A stretch of DNA of 64,000 nucleotides from an uncultured Lachnospiraceae bacterium (GTDB taxonomy: Bacteria; Bacillota; Clostridia; Lachnospirales; Lachnospiraceae): assembly GCA_905235745.1 (NCBI GenBank), contig CAJOMN010000015.1, forward strand, positions 1 through 64,000. The letters are read 5' to 3'. The notes under the pieces were generated by a model. The model saw only the letters and a program-made list of their open reading frames with translations, searched no databases and had not been told where the DNA came from. Of this stretch, positions 13,784 through 36,983 are shown one piece after another. The first letter of the stretch is position 1; the number at the start of each line of letters is the position of its first letter. The position numbers were made by a program, and so were the translations under genes.

Positions 13784-15076
13784 ATGGGTTTGATTAAAGC
13801 AATTGCGGGTGCTGCCGGCGGAGCCATGGCAGATCAGTGGAAAGAGTTCTTCTACTGCGAATCGATACCTGCCGATGTGATCGTTACAAAGGGTTCCAAG
13901 CAGATCGACGGGAAGCGTTCTTCCAACACAAAGGGACACGACAACATCATAAGCAACGGTTCGGCTATCGCTGTCGCAGACGGACAGTGCATGCTGATCG
14001 TTGAGCAGGGCAAGGTCGTTGATATATGCGCCGAGCCCGGCGAATATGTGTATGATACGTCTACCGAGCCGAGTATCTTCTACGGCAAGTTATCCGATTC
14101 GATCGTAGAGTCGTTCAAGCAGATCGGAAAGCGTTTCACGTTCGGCGGCGACACGGGCAAGGATCAGAGGGTATACTACGTTAACACGAAGGAGATACCG
14201 GGCAACAAGTACGGAACAGCCAATCCGGTTCCTTTCCGTGTTGTTGACAGGAATATCGGACTTGATGTTGATATTACGATACGCTGTCACGGTGAGTATT
14301 CATACAAGATTGAAGACCCTATCCTTTTCTATACAAACGTTGCAGGTAACATAACCGACACTTATACAAGAGATGAGATAGACAGCCAGCTCAAGAGCGA
14401 ACTTCTTACCGCTCTCCAGCCAGCTTTTGCCAAGATAAGCGATATGGGTATCAGATATTCGTCACTTCCCGGACATACTCAGGAGATGGCGGATGCACTT
14501 AACGATGTATTAAGCGAGAAGTGGAGAAACCTTCGCGGAATATCTATCGTATCATTCGGCGTAAGCTCGGTTACGGCTCCGGAAGATCAGGAGCAGATGA
14601 TCAGAGACCTTCAGAAGGCAGCTGTTATGCGTGATCCGAGCATGGGCGCGGCTACTCTTGTCGGAGCTCAGGCGGATGCGATGAAGGCAGCCGCAAACAA
14701 TACTGCGACAGGTCCCATGATGGCGTTTGCGGGAATGAACATGGCGGCACAGGCCGGCGGAATGAATGCGCAGCAGTTATACCAGATGGCAGGGCAGCAG
14801 CAGGCGGCAGCTCCGGCAGCGGCAGCTCCCGCAGCCGGTTCGGCAGGAGGGTGGACATGTGAATGCGGCACCGTTAATACAGGCAAGTTCTGCAGCAACT
14901 GCGGCAAACCCGAACCTGCACCGGCAGCGCAGTGGACATGTGAATGCGGAACAGTCAATACAGGGAAGTTCTGCAGTAACTGCGGTAAGTCCGCCCCGGC
15001 AGGAGAATGGACATGTGAATGCGGAACGGTCAATACGGGTAAGTTCTGCAGCAACTGCGGCAAGTCGAGACCATGA
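13784..15076 (+). CDS. SPFH-domain (YdjI/virion-core-like) protein with three zinc ribbons
   Basis: 430 residues, preceded by TTAGGAGG. The first 290 residues form an SPFH/prohibitin-like domain (MGLIKAIAGAAGGAMADQW, then the conserved YYVNTKEIPGNKYGT and IRCHGEYSYKI). Bacillus YdjI-type proteins belong to this group and are linked to membrane microdomains and envelope stress. An Ala/Gln/Met-rich linker (about 300-350) precedes three nearly identical zinc ribbons of the form WTCECGTVNTGKFCSNCGK at about 356-375, 384-403 and 409-428. Each has two CxC/CxxC pairs able to bind zinc. No membrane helix is seen. A strong stem-loop follows the stop. Confidence 0.85.
   Translation: MGLIKAIAGAAGGAMADQWKEFFYCESIPADVIVTKGSKQIDGKRSSNTKGHDNIISNGSAIAVADGQCMLIVEQGKVVDICAEPGEYVYDTSTEPSIFYGKLSDSIVESFKQIGKRFTFGGDTGKDQRVYYVNTKEIPGNKYGTANPVPFRVVDRNIGLDVDITIRCHGEYSYKIEDPILFYTNVAGNITDTYTRDEIDSQLKSELLTALQPAFAKISDMGIRYSSLPGHTQEMADALNDVLSEKWRNLRGISIVSFGVSSVTAPEDQEQMIRDLQKAAVMRDPSMGAATLVGAQADAMKAAANNTATGPMMAFAGMNMAAQAGGMNAQQLYQMAGQQQAAAPAAAAPAAGSAGGWTCECGTVNTGKFCSNCGKPEPAPAAQWTCECGTVNTGKFCSNCGKSAPAGEWTCECGTVNTGKFCSNCGKSRP
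14853..15072 (+). repeat. Three tandem copies of a zinc-ribbon coding unit
   Basis: Units of about 60 bases (TGGACATGTGAATGCGG... to ...AACTGCGG) are repeated three times with short, differing linkers of 15-27 bases. Copies two and three are especially close at the nucleotide level, which suggests recent duplication within the gene. Confidence 0.85.
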
Positions 15077-15165: not shown

Positions 15166-15193
15166 TTGATTTTCGCGGTCGGTAATCTATAAT
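15166..15193 (+). promoter_or_regulatory. Promoter for the OFA transporter transcript
   Basis: TTGATT (15166-15171), a 16-base spacer and TATAAT (15188-15193). Transcription would begin near 15200, about 30 bases before the structured repeat at 15232, placing that repeat in the 5' untranslated region. Confidence 0.6.
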
Positions 15194-15231: not shown

Positions 15232-15356
15232 GGTGGTGTAAAGTTTTCTATGAAAACTTTGCAGCACGCAGGCCACGCCCCGTTTATCCTGCACGAAGTG
15301 CTGGATGCCACCCCGGCGAGGGGCGAAGCGAGCTTTTAATGGCGTGGCTCTCAAGA
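15232..15356 (+). repeat. Structured dispersed repeat, copy 1 (long form, 125 bases)
   Basis: Shares almost every base with 35366-35450 except for about 40 extra bases in the middle. Elements in order: GGTGGTGT; a perfect 9-base-pair hairpin AAAGTTTTC/GAAAACTTT (15240-15260) with loop TAT; GCCACGCC (15272-15279), which pairs with GGCGTGGC (15341-15348) to enclose the rest. The copy-specific insert holds two more hairpins, around 15286-15306 (ATCCTGCAC...GTGCTGGAT) and 15311-15323 (CCCC...GGGG). The repeat ends with CTCTCAAGA, about 10 bases before the transporter's ribosome-binding site. Confidence 0.85.
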
Positions 15357-15373
15357 AGAAGAGAGGTATGGTA

Positions 15374-16669
15374 ATGGATAACAAATGGGTGCGCGGGGCG
15401 ATCCCCGCATTGCTTCTGCATTGCAGTATAGGTACTGTTTATTGCTGGTCGACCTTTTCGAAGGAGATTGCGGATTATATCGGAGCGAGCAAATCCGCAA
15501 CCGAGTGGGCCTTTTCGCTTGCGATCTTCTTCCTCGGGATGTCGGCGGCATTTCTCGGTGATGTTGTTGAAAAGGATATTCACAGATCGTCTCTTATTGC
15601 GACCATTTGCTTTACGGCAGGTATGATCGGAACCGGATTCGGTATCATGATAAAGTCCCTGCCGGTCATTCTGATAAGCTACGGATGCATAATGGGTATC
15701 GGACTCGGTACGGGCTATCTGTCTCCGGTCAAGACCCTTATGCTTTGGTTTGAGGACAAGAAGGGTCTTGCAACGGGTCTTGCGGTTGCGGGATTCGGGC
15801 TTGCCAAGGCTATCGCGAGTCCTATCATGCAGGCGATCCTCAACAGGTTTGACAATAATCCGGCGCCGATGTTTTTCATTATGGGCGGTGTTTATTTTGT
15901 GATGATGTTTGTGGGACACCTTCTTCTGCGCAAGCCGTCCACATGGGTCGAGGCTCATTCGGAAGGCGGCATCAAAGAGTTCTTTGCGACTCTTGCGAGC
16001 AACTTCAAGACTTCATTCGGCAACAAGACCTTCATAGGCATATGGCTGATGTTCTATATCAACATAGCGTGCGGTCTTGCGCTCATTTCACAGGAGAAGA
16101 TGATCTTCAAGTCGATAGGACTGTCGGTCGGCGTATGCGCCACCCTCGCCACGGTAACATCGATCGCAAATGCGGCAGGTCGTCTCGGATTTTCCGCATG
16201 GGCTGACACGTTAAAGGACAGGAATACGATCTACAAGCTGATCTTCATACTGTCGATCGCGTTTACCGGGCTTGTCGTTATCACACAGGGAATCGTGAAG
16301 GGCGCACAGGTTCCGGCTCTTGCGGTATTGTGCGTTGCACTCCTGATAATGGTAAATGCCGGATACGGCGGAGGATTTTCAAATGTTCCGACACTCCTGT
16401 CCGACCACTTCGGAATGGGCAAGATATCATCGGTTCACGGCATGTGCCTGTCGGCGTGGGCAATAGCGGGTCTTACGGGCAACCAGATGGCGACCGCTAT
16501 AGTCAACCGTGTAGGAGAGTTTAAAGAGATCACTCTTTCAAACGGAGATGTTGACATGGTCAATCCTGTCGGATATCAGGCGGTGCTGTATGTGACGGGG
16601 GCACTGTATATCATAGCTCTTATCATAAGCTGCGTCATGATACCGAAGACCAATAACAAGGATAAATAA
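15374..16669 (+). CDS. OFA-type major facilitator transporter
   Basis: 431 residues from ATG 15374 (MDNKWVRGAIPALLLHCSIG), with AGAGAGG 8 bases upstream. Twelve hydrophobic helices can be traced. GTVYCWSTFSKEIADYIGAS after helix 1 and GTGYLSPVKTLMLWF are typical of the OFA (oxalate/formate antiporter-like) family of monocarboxylate transporters. The charged loop between the two six-helix halves (about 205-225) is present. Substrate is unknown; relatives handle oxalate, formate, lactate or other small acids. The start overlaps the stop of a 12-codon frame that begins inside the structured repeat (TAATG arrangement). carB follows 17 bases after the stop, so the two may be cotranscribed. Confidence 0.85.
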   Translation: MDNKWVRGAIPALLLHCSIGTVYCWSTFSKEIADYIGASKSATEWAFSLAIFFLGMSAAFLGDVVEKDIHRSSLIATICFTAGMIGTGFGIMIKSLPVILISYGCIMGIGLGTGYLSPVKTLMLWFEDKKGLATGLAVAGFGLAKAIASPIMQAILNRFDNNPAPMFFIMGGVYFVMMFVGHLLLRKPSTWVEAHSEGGIKEFFATLASNFKTSFGNKTFIGIWLMFYINIACGLALISQEKMIFKSIGLSVGVCATLATVTSIANAAGRLGFSAWADTLKDRNTIYKLIFILSIAFTGLVVITQGIVKGAQVPALAVLCVALLIMVNAGYGGGFSNVPTLLSDHFGMGKISSVHGMCLSAWAIAGLTGNQMATAIVNRVGEFKEITLSNGDVDMVNPVGYQAVLYVTGALYIIALIISCVMIPKTNNKDK

Positions 16670-34167: not shown

Positions 34168-35267
34168 AGTTTGTTAAGACAGAGGATCTTAAGATCGGCA
34201 TGAGGCTTGCAAAGCCCATTTACAACAACAAAGGCGTTCTGCTGTATGACCGCAATTCCAAGCTTACGCAGCAGGGAATTGAAAGCGTGCGTAATTTCAA
34301 GCTTATAGGGATATATATTCTTGAGCCTGCCGAACCGCTTCCGCCGCAGTCCGAAGAGGACATCGAGTTTGAGAAGTTCCAGATGGTGACTGTATTCTCG
34401 GTGGAAGAGGAACTTCATGCGATAATCGAGCATGGCAGGAATAACAGGATATACAATCTTGCGGACACGATCATCAGGAATTACGGAAGGCTCGACCACA
34501 AGATCAATTTCCTGCAGAACCTGCGCAGCAAGGAGGATTTTGTCTATAAACACTCGCTAAATGTTGCCATATTGGCAGCGATGATCAGTCATAATATGAA
34601 CCTTCGCAAGGAAGAGATAACAGAAACCGTAGTATGCGCTATAGTCCATGATATAGGAAAGCTGAACGCGGATCCTTCGCTTCTGGTCAAGGATGATATA
34701 ACCGAGGATGAGGAGCAGGAGCTTAAACGGGCGGAATATGCCGGGATACAGCTCATAAGTTCGGCCTTCGGAGCGCAGCCTAACGTAAAGCGCGTTGTTA
34801 CGCAGGCTTATACAAGGCTTGATGCATATCATAAAGGCGAACCGATAGAGGGTAATACCAAGATGGTTGTCGGTGCCAAGGTTCTGTGCGTGGCTGAAGA
34901 GTATGACCGCATGACTGCCATAAACAGCGCGGGAGAACCGCAGTCGGAGCTTGCCGAGATCAAGGTCATGATGGAAAATCCCGAGTATTTTGATCCGGAT
35001 GCCGTAAAAGCGCTTGTAAGCAGCATTAATCTGCTGTCCGAGGGCACCTGTGTGGAACTGTCAACCGGAGAAAAGGCTCTTGTTATCAGCCCCAATAAAG
35101 ACAATATATTCCGGCCGATGGTCCTGTGCTTTTCAACAAATACAATAATAGATCTGGCAATGACCGCGCTTTACAATGATATCGAGATAGTTGATATCAT
35201 GAAGACTTTTGACAACCGTTATGTCATGGATGAGGAAGCTGTCAGGAAAGCTAAGGAAACTACTTGA
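34164..35267 (+). CDS. Degenerate HD-GYP-like protein
   Basis: 367 residues. The N-terminal 100 residues (KFVKTEDLKIGMRLAKPIYN) are the DUF3391-like lead-in often found before HD-GYP domains. In the catalytic part FVYKHSLNVAILAAMI and AIVHDIGKL keep the first histidine and the HD pair. Where the family has a later histidine and the HHExxDGxGYP signature, this protein has KRAEYAGIQL and AYTRLDAYHKGEP, so most metal ligands are lost. Hydrolysis of c-di-GMP is therefore unlikely, and a binding or partner role is more plausible. Translationally coupled to the EAL gene through ATGA, so the two proteins are probably made in fixed ratio and may interact. Confidence 0.8.
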   Translation: MKFVKTEDLKIGMRLAKPIYNNKGVLLYDRNSKLTQQGIESVRNFKLIGIYILEPAEPLPPQSEEDIEFEKFQMVTVFSVEEELHAIIEHGRNNRIYNLADTIIRNYGRLDHKINFLQNLRSKEDFVYKHSLNVAILAAMISHNMNLRKEEITETVVCAIVHDIGKLNADPSLLVKDDITEDEEQELKRAEYAGIQLISSAFGAQPNVKRVVTQAYTRLDAYHKGEPIEGNTKMVVGAKVLCVAEEYDRMTAINSAGEPQSELAEIKVMMENPEYFDPDAVKALVSSINLLSEGTCVELSTGEKALVISPNKDNIFRPMVLCFSTNTIIDLAMTALYNDIEIVDIMKTFDNRYVMDEEAVRKAKETT

Positions 35268-35365
35268 CCAATGCCGCACAAGCGGTTATATTCATAATAT
35301 ACTTTTGCCAATCAATTTACATTTCGTTTTTTTAATTCCAGGTACATTTGTATAACTGAATATTT

Positions 35366-35450
35366 GGTGGTGTAAAGTTTTCTATGAAAACTTTGCAGCA
35401 CGTAGGCCACGCCCGAGCGAAGCGAGCTTTTAATGGCGTGGCTCTCAAGA
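35366..35450 (+). repeat. Structured dispersed repeat, copy 2 (short form, 85 bases)
   Basis: Matches copy 1 (15232-15356) nearly base for base but lacks the 40-base insert. It keeps the 9-base-pair hairpin AAAGTTTTC/GAAAACTTT (35374-35394) and the enclosing pair GCCACGCC (35406-35413) with GGCGTGGC (35435-35442). A TATAAC element ends 9 bases before it, so a transcript could begin close to the repeat boundary. It ends about 6 bases before the ribosome-binding site of the comM-like gene. Confidence 0.85.
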
Positions 35451-35468
35451 TTTTACGGAGGAAAATAT

Positions 35469-36983
35469 ATGTTTTGTTCTGTTTTGTCCGGAGGCATTCG
35501 TGGTATCGAAAGCTTTCCGGTTCATGTCGAGACCGATATTTCCAGCGGCATGCCGTGCTTTGAGATCGTAGGCTATGTGGGAAGCGAGGTAAGGGAAGCA
35601 AAGGACAGGGTGAGGACGGCACTTCGGAACGCCGGATATATGATGCCGGTTGCGAGGATAACGGTCAATCTGTCGCCGGCTGATATCAGAAAATCAGGAA
35701 GTGCTTATGACCTTCCGATGGCGCTTTCGATCCTTACATGCATGGGTGTGATAGATGCCGCGGCAGTTAACGGAATATTTGCTGCCGGAGAGGTGTCGCT
35801 TTCCGGCAACGTATGCGCCATAAAGGGAATACTGCCTATGATAATGATGGCCAAGACCCTCGGCGTCAAAAAGTGCATCATTCCTGCGGCAAATGCCAGG
35901 GAAGGGGCGGTTATCGAGGGTATGGAGGTGTATACCGTATCTTCCATAGCAGAAGCGGCCCGGTTTCTTGCGGGGGAATGTAAGCTTCGGCCCGTTGTAA
36001 GCAGCCTGAGCCGTGATCTTCTTGCCGGTCATTCATATGACAATGATTTTATACAGATAAAAGGGCAGAAAACCGCAAGAAGAGGGGCGGAGATCGCGGC
36101 TGCCGGTTTACATAACTTCATAATGGTCGGACCGCCCGGAGCCGGCAAGACTCTTATAGCCAAATGCATACCGTCAATAATGCCGCCCCTTTGCGAAGAG
36201 GAATGTCTGGAGGTATCGTCCGTATATTCCGTCAGGGGAGCGCTTGACGCGGATAAACCGGTCATTACCAGCCGGCCGTTCGTGTCGGCTCACAGTTCTT
36301 CCACGGACATATCGCTTGTGGGAGGAGGCGCCCGTCCGATACCCGGCGCGGTGAGCCTCGCGCACAAGGGCGTACTGTTTCTCGACGAGCTTCCGGAGTT
36401 CTCAAGAAAGGCACTTGAAGCGCTCCGCCAGCCGCTTGAGGACAGGATGGTGCATATTACAAGGAACCGGGATATATGCGTGTTTCCGGCTGACTGTATG
36501 CTTGTCGCGGCAATGAATCCGTGCCCGTGCGGTCATTATCCGGATATGAACAGGTGCACATGCAACACATCCCAGCGGGCAAGGTATATGTCCAAAATAT
36601 CGGGGCCGTTCCTGGACAGGATGGATATATGCGTAGTCACGGAGAAGGTCACGCCCTTTGACATCCAGTCGGGAAGCGATCCGGAGTGTTCGAAGGATAT
36701 ACTGGAAAGGGTTATTGCCGCCCACAGGATACAGAAGAAGAGATTTGAGGGAAGCGGCATACTGTTCAATTCGCAGATGAACAACAAGGAGATAGAGAAG
36801 TATTGCCGTCTCGGGGATAAGCAGCAGGCGCTTATGAAGAAAATGGCGCTTCGGTACGATATGAGCGCGAGAACGTATTACAGGGTATTAAAGGTGGCAA
36901 GGACTATATCAGACCTTTCCGGCACGGATGATATTACGGAGGAAGCCCTGCTTGAAGCCGTGCGGCTGAAGGTCAGCTTTTAA
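35469..36983 (+). CDS. YifB/ComM-family Mg-chelatase-like AAA+ ATPase
   Basis: 504 residues from ATG 35469, preceded by ACGGAGGAA; in-frame codons further upstream belong to the dispersed repeat. The N-terminal Lon-protease-like fold (EIVGYVGSEVREAKDRVRTA) is followed by an AAA+ module: Walker A GPPGAGKT, Walker B LFLDELPEFSRKALEALRQP, and a cysteine group CPCGHYPDMNRCTC. The C-terminal YifB region (YRVLKVARTISDLSG) is complete. ComM is a helicase that aids branch migration during integration of transformed DNA. dprA comes next, so the pair forms a DNA-uptake/recombination unit. Confidence 0.93.
   Translation: MFCSVLSGGIRGIESFPVHVETDISSGMPCFEIVGYVGSEVREAKDRVRTALRNAGYMMPVARITVNLSPADIRKSGSAYDLPMALSILTCMGVIDAAAVNGIFAAGEVSLSGNVCAIKGILPMIMMAKTLGVKKCIIPAANAREGAVIEGMEVYTVSSIAEAARFLAGECKLRPVVSSLSRDLLAGHSYDNDFIQIKGQKTARRGAEIAAAGLHNFIMVGPPGAGKTLIAKCIPSIMPPLCEEECLEVSSVYSVRGALDADKPVITSRPFVSAHSSSTDISLVGGGARPIPGAVSLAHKGVLFLDELPEFSRKALEALRQPLEDRMVHITRNRDICVFPADCMLVAAMNPCPCGHYPDMNRCTCNTSQRARYMSKISGPFLDRMDICVVTEKVTPFDIQSGSDPECSKDILERVIAAHRIQKKRFEGSGILFNSQMNNKEIEKYCRLGDKQQALMKKMALRYDMSARTYYRVLKVARTISDLSGTDDITEEALLEAVRLKVSF

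Follow-up and report, generated by a model that had tools for sequence, protein, structure and literature searches.

A dispersed family of short structured sequences, two members of which lie in the window (the 64,000-nt stretch of Lachnospiraceae DNA analysed here), is most probably a small non-autonomous mobile element. We put the probability at roughly 60% that its conserved two-hairpin core acts as a single strand, that it inserts in sense 5' of the Shine-Dalgarno (SD) sequence of genes, and that it is moved in trans. Within this proposal, the family itself, its covarying structure, its constraint on position and strand, and the appearance and decay of copies at orthologous sites are direct observations. 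Support comes from about 22 near-identical copies before unrelated genes in one genome, from the placement of 74 of 101 copies in the genus at sites that make up 8.8% of the positions available, and from covariation. Empty sites and relics, a constant tag, tip and bulge, tandem units, and features shared with REP substrates provide further support.

The two window copies and the fold of the element

Both copies lie on the + strand, at 15232-15356 (copy 1) and 35366-35450 (copy 2), where the preliminary description had placed them in the same orientation. Copy 2 is the 85-nt short form, the commonest type in its own genome. Copy 1, identified by its sequence, by genome BLAST and by a covariance-model match, is a 125-nt long form with about 40 extra nucleotides within stem 2, where about 44 nt replace 4 nt; apart from this insert the two copies are almost identical. 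The near-identical 85-base core described previously is therefore present at both sites, though in copy 1 it is not contiguous, being split by the insert.

In the element, a first hairpin of 16 pairs is followed by a G(T/C)AG tag, then by a second hairpin with a bulge, and finally by the sequence CTCTCAA. In hairpin 2, the 8 pairs of stem 2 enclose an unpaired AATG and a short tip stem capped by a GAA loop. Fold and covariation place hairpin 1 of copy 1 at 15233-15268 (GTGGTGTAAAGTTTTC-TAT-GAAAACTTTGCAGCAC) and the arms of its stem 2 at 15273-15280 (GCCACGCC) and 15341-15348 (GGCGTGGC). Between hairpin 1 and stem 2, at the 5' foot of hairpin 2, stands the tag GCAG (15269-15272), which is GTAG in copy 2 and in most copies, while a TCTCAA tail follows the 3' arm and runs up to 15354. 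The inner insert (15281-15323), which is not found in copy 2, is predicted to fold into extra hairpins. The corresponding parts of copy 2, again assigned from fold and covariation, are hairpin 1 (35367-35402), the GTAG tag (35403-35406), and hairpin 2 with the tail TCTCAA (35407-35448), in which GCCACGCC and GGCGTGGC form stem 2 with a C-GAA-G tip and an AATG bulge. The strong stems noted earlier are borne out: both copies fold better than their dinucleotide-shuffled versions (z -3.0 and -4.8, respectively). No terminator was predicted at either copy.

As previously reported, each copy ends just before a ribosome-binding site (RBS). Copy 1 stops shortly before AGAGAGG (15360-15366), the SD of an MFS transporter gene (named OFA in the preliminary description) with candidate ATG codons at 15368 and 15374, the whole start region spanning 15360-15376. 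Copy 2 ends 6 nt before the GGAGG of a comM-like gene of the ComM/Mg-chelatase family (SD and start codon within 35457-35471, ATG at 35469). Candidate sigma-70-like promoters, in both cases a consensus match only, precede copy 1 at 15166-15193 (10/12), the promoter already suggested for this copy, and copy 2 at 35264-35292. The gene 5' of copy 1 (13784-15076) ends in three tandem zinc-ribbon-like repeats (WTCECGTVNTGKFCSNCGK).

Compensatory changes, which had been named beforehand as the mark of a functional RNA structure, are found throughout the element. Among 71 distinct sequences, 28 of the 29 base pairs have changed on both sides, all three stems covary strongly, and 93.7% of the alignment cells at paired positions are paired. 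The covariation score is 0.396, against 0.129 for shuffled and about 0.03 for slid controls, although fitting the alignment to the covariance model accounts for some of the excess in pairing. When members whose stems differ entirely are folded without constraint, the same architecture results, and members from other genera also share it. The stems change completely, while the tag, tip loop and bulge stay constant: in a string count within the element, rather than a count by column, 130 distinct copies gave 80 GTAG, 40 GCAG and 10 other tags. The unpaired (A)AATG on the 3' side of stem 2, which makes it an imperfect palindrome with a bulge, is conserved in subfamilies. Mispairs are more often G-T than A-C (67 versus 20; 25 versus 15 outside four variable positions), which mildly supports the sense strand as the folded one.

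The dnaK leaders of three genomes of the genus (L115 in G025, L133 in G031 and L139 in G020) have a hairpin 2 that is identical in G025 and G031; hairpin 1 has been swapped for another palindrome, with arms that appear to be nested in exchanged order. Two simple roles were ruled out by eye: a peptide read from the ATG in hairpin 1, because the frame is lost across variants, and direct anti-SD pairing, because CCTCC occurs in some subfamilies only.

Distribution, placement and turnover

The 2.5-Mb genome that contains the window holds about 22 near-identical copies, so the resemblance of the window pair is far beyond chance. BLAST recovered about 20 copies, complete or partial, in addition to these two, and the covariance model gave 24 matches, a few of them echoes that the palindromic hairpin 1 produces on the opposite strand; the set analysed comprised 22 places. 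Across the genus, 14 of 37 genomes contain covariance-model matches, with 31 in G025, 18 in G031 and 11 in G020 (echoes included); the near-complete genome G025 has about 28 copies. Diverged members occur in nine genomes of other genera within a 250-genome sample of the family. Named database records with matches are Lachnospiraceae metagenome-assembled genomes (MAGs), two of them from rumen samples, and the phage, plasmid and IMG/VR collections searched contained no match. The carriers are a rumen bacterium and its relatives, with dozens of copies. None of the Rfam 15 covariance models matched the element at the gathering score or up to an E-value of 5, in keeping with the earlier remark that it belongs to no recognised riboswitch class.

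Several MAG contigs (at L109, L116, L155 and L176) stop within or at an element, and copy numbers in draft genomes are therefore probably too low. Tandem units are present at L012, L034, L053 and L092. The diverged copies at loci L336-L349 of G165 are enclosed by a separate inverted repeat (CGCATCGTCC...GGACGATTTGGAATGCG) and form arrays with as many as three members.

Placement follows gene starts closely. The preliminary description had taken scatter without regard to gene start or strand as the sign of a plain repeat; the opposite was found, 20 of the 22 copies in the window's own genome lying in sense 13-22 nt 5' of an ATG, with the SD between. These copies often start right behind the stop codon of the preceding gene. 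The two exceptions are a decayed copy and, in a tandem pair, the upstream unit. Outside the window, the decayed copy L025 (G000 C15:91599-91698, at C15:91662) has no recognisable downstream start codon. Genus-wide, with gene starts assigned mechanically as the best SD plus ATG, 74 of 101 copies have an ATG 13-27 nt beyond their end (mean 20 nt), in sense and with the SD between, against a chance expectation of 8.8%, the share of such sites among intergenic strand positions in the window. The remaining copies are largely tandem units, arrays and degenerate copies. Additional named MAGs contribute three to four more cases, spaced at 16-21 nt. Two genomes of other genera, G174 and G281, keep the rule in 11 of 14 copies; it fails in G165 (4/19) and G322 (1/11), and strict leader placement therefore does not hold family-wide.

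The genes that follow are functionally unrelated, and include asnS, tyrS, topA, minC, yajC, galE, ddl, citrate synthase, transporters and regulators. Spacing cannot tell whether the SD or the ATG sets the position, because the distances to the SD (about 8.5 nt) and to the ATG (20 nt) both have a standard deviation near 2.5 nt. At L110 in G025, the element lies 7 nt before an AGGAGG that is distant from the called ATG, which suggests that the position is set by SD-like DNA and not by the start codon. Tandem truncated derivatives of 19-20 nt (GTGGTGTGATGGCTCTCCC) lie between element and start codon at L103 (G025) and L128 (G031), where the element's own 5' end seems to act as the SD.

Orthologous genes in G025, G031 and G029, for example minC, degT, topA and asnS, have no element and retain the SD region, and several G025/G031 pairs, such as those at L108, L110 and L125, likewise have an empty ortholog. 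Truncated remnants occupy the same place in other orthologs (e.g. L221, L235, L237, L270, L276, L288 and L300). Copies have therefore been gained and lost and the element is mobile. This agrees with one of the two readings offered earlier, a short palindromic mobile element lodging in 5' leaders, the other having been a cis-acting RNA. By inspection, its ends are not terminal inverted repeats, the 5' end GGTGGTGTAA failing to match the reverse complement of the 3' end TTGAGAGCCA. As to a target duplication of fixed length, one register gave 7 exact 4-mers where 0.93 were expected (z of about 3 among several hundred registers), a weak signal that is missing from most near-identical copies of the own genome and is not general; no strict duplication is apparent.

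Mobilisation, function in place and rival explanations

Y1 transposase genes are found in 3 of the 14 carrier genomes of the genus and in 15 of the 23 non-carriers. None was detected in G025, G031, G165 or G281; many carriers are incomplete drafts, while G025, G165 and the window's own genome are 98-99% complete. The own genome encodes a RAYT-like Y1 protein that has a helix-turn-helix-like stretch at its C-terminus (L060, G000 C23:35047-35367) and an IS605-type TnpA/TnpB pair (L057, G000 C22:3513-3839), at which the covariance model detected no element-like ends. None of the four Y1 loci checked (L057-L060) is flanked by the element. A RAYT or other Y1 enzyme was accordingly rejected as the present mobiliser, being missing in most carriers and commoner in non-carriers.

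Three copies common to G025 and G031 are identical at 246 of 249 bases, compared with 104 of 149 fourfold sites in the downstream genes; measured against the upstream coding flanks, which are 90-95% identical, the contrast is less marked. One of the three (L105/L123) carries a hairpin-1 variant of its own, which makes recent homogenisation less likely. In a fourth shared copy, the dnaK leader, hairpin 1 is different yet still paired, and most other copies occur in only one of the two species. The near-identity suggests constraint in place at a few loci, with gene conversion possible too, and counts against a purely selfish element, which would need no such constraint. Predicted RBS accessibility is 0.531 with the element and 0.519 without it (p 0.22), and 91% of the element's predicted pairing is internal. 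Passive exposure or masking of the RBS was rejected, as accessibility is not predicted to change, and any regulation would need a bound factor. Regulation of the downstream gene in cis is possible.

In the mechanism that we favour for this genus, the element would enter in the orientation of the gene, slightly 5' of its SD, and would then persist as a self-contained folded segment closing the 5' leader. A structure-recognising enzyme acting in trans, REP/IS200-like to judge from the architecture, may move the element or may once have done so, and SD-adjacent sites may be favoured by the insertion step, by retention, or by both. This proposal is weakened by the missing mobiliser, the lack of terminal inverted repeats, the weak duplication signal, and placement in G165 and G322. 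An alternative that we consider unlikely is a true cis-regulatory RNA, a leader that binds a protein or ligand to control translation or stability, spreads by usefulness, and needs to lie beside the SD. It would explain the fixed sense position beside the SD across many species, the near-identity of the copies that G025 and G031 share (together with the private L105/L123 variant) and, mildly, the excess of G-T over A-C mispairs. It fits poorly with downstream genes that share no function, with a predicted structure in which no switch is visible, with the many orthologs at which the element was lost or never present, and with the lack of an Rfam match; the similarity of the upstream flanks also takes force from its conservation argument.

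Less probable still is an ordinary GTAG-tagged REP/BIME family moved by the RAYT (TnpA_REP) of the same genomes. The tag, GTAG or GCAG in 120 of 130 distinct copies, the bulged hairpin, the 3' CT dinucleotides, and the RAYT-like gene of the own genome all point that way. Most carriers, however, near-complete G025 among them, have no Y1 gene, the element does not flank the RAYT-like locus, and its placement is the reverse of that of REPs, which lie mostly downstream of genes and often in pairs of opposite orientation (PMC3733652). Spread at the RNA level, in which element RNA is joined to mRNA at the edge of an initiating ribosome and then copied into DNA, appears very improbable. The 5' edge of the initiating 30S subunit lies close to 20 nt before the start codon, matching the mean distance of 20 nt, and the exclusive use of the sense strand and the short, variable flank similarity would also fit. 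Against it, the own genome, at 99% completeness, contains no reverse transcriptase, such genes occur in 15 of 37 genomes of the genus without following the element, and the L110 placement points to an SD-like DNA sequence instead of a start codon. That a mobile element locates bacterial ribosome-binding regions and thereby gives dozens of unrelated genes, essential ones included, one regulatory RNA leader is a further reading that we regard as unlikely.

Comparison with known systems

To our knowledge, no bacterial repeat described so far inserts in sense at an almost constant distance 5' of start codons, and a literature search for leader-targeted repeats found nothing relevant. Targeted insertion would imply a novel means by which translation start regions are recognised, at the DNA or the RNA level. 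If selection acts on retention, many genes would have received one folded leader from a selfish hairpin, and the emergence of shared leader RNAs could be seen directly.

The element resembles cis-regulatory leader RNAs, such as riboswitches and ribosomal-protein leaders, in its conserved, covarying structure closing 5' leaders; it differs in having no Rfam family, near-identical copies before unrelated genes within one genome, and no predicted RBS switch. MITEs, the BOX/RUP-type repeats of streptococci and bcr repeats are short, structured, dispersed and non-coding, and are sometimes co-transcribed with their neighbours. The element shares the first four of these properties but shows no terminal inverted repeats or strict target duplication, and is set apart by its strict sense position beside the SD. 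Its hairpins, the tetranucleotide at a 5' foot and the lack of inverted repeats recall IS200/IS605-type ends such as those of IS608, whose right end is TCAA, as in the tail of the element. Unlike these insertion sequences, it has no left tetranucleotide target and no tnpA or tnpB between its ends.

The closest likeness is to GTAG-tagged REP/BIME sequences. GTAG, a bulged hairpin and 3' CT/CA dinucleotides are determinants of TnpA_REP substrates (PMC8266576), and in the element, too, an imperfect hairpin with a bulge carries GTAG at its 5' foot and has CT/CA dinucleotides on its 3' side, and the stems covary. The element is likewise intergenic and non-autonomous, and forms homogeneous, species-specific subfamilies. 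In contrast to REPs, it has a second hairpin before the tag, about 20-30 copies rather than hundreds, and carriers that mostly have no Y1 gene, with the one RAYT-like locus not flanked by it. REPs occur mainly 3' of coding regions, often as opposite-orientation pairs (PMC3733652), whereas copies of the element are single, in sense and 5' of the SD. The words Firmicutes and Clostridi- are absent from the main texts of PMC3733652 and PMC2817692; the element adds Lachnospiraceae that lack the usual transposase to the range of GTAG-tagged repeats. Heads of the form GTAGGCC appear among enterobacterial REPs (PMC2817692), and the head of copy 2 is the same, letter for letter. The best reading is therefore of a REP-like two-hairpin mobile element that, in this genus, lies just 5' of ribosome-binding sites.
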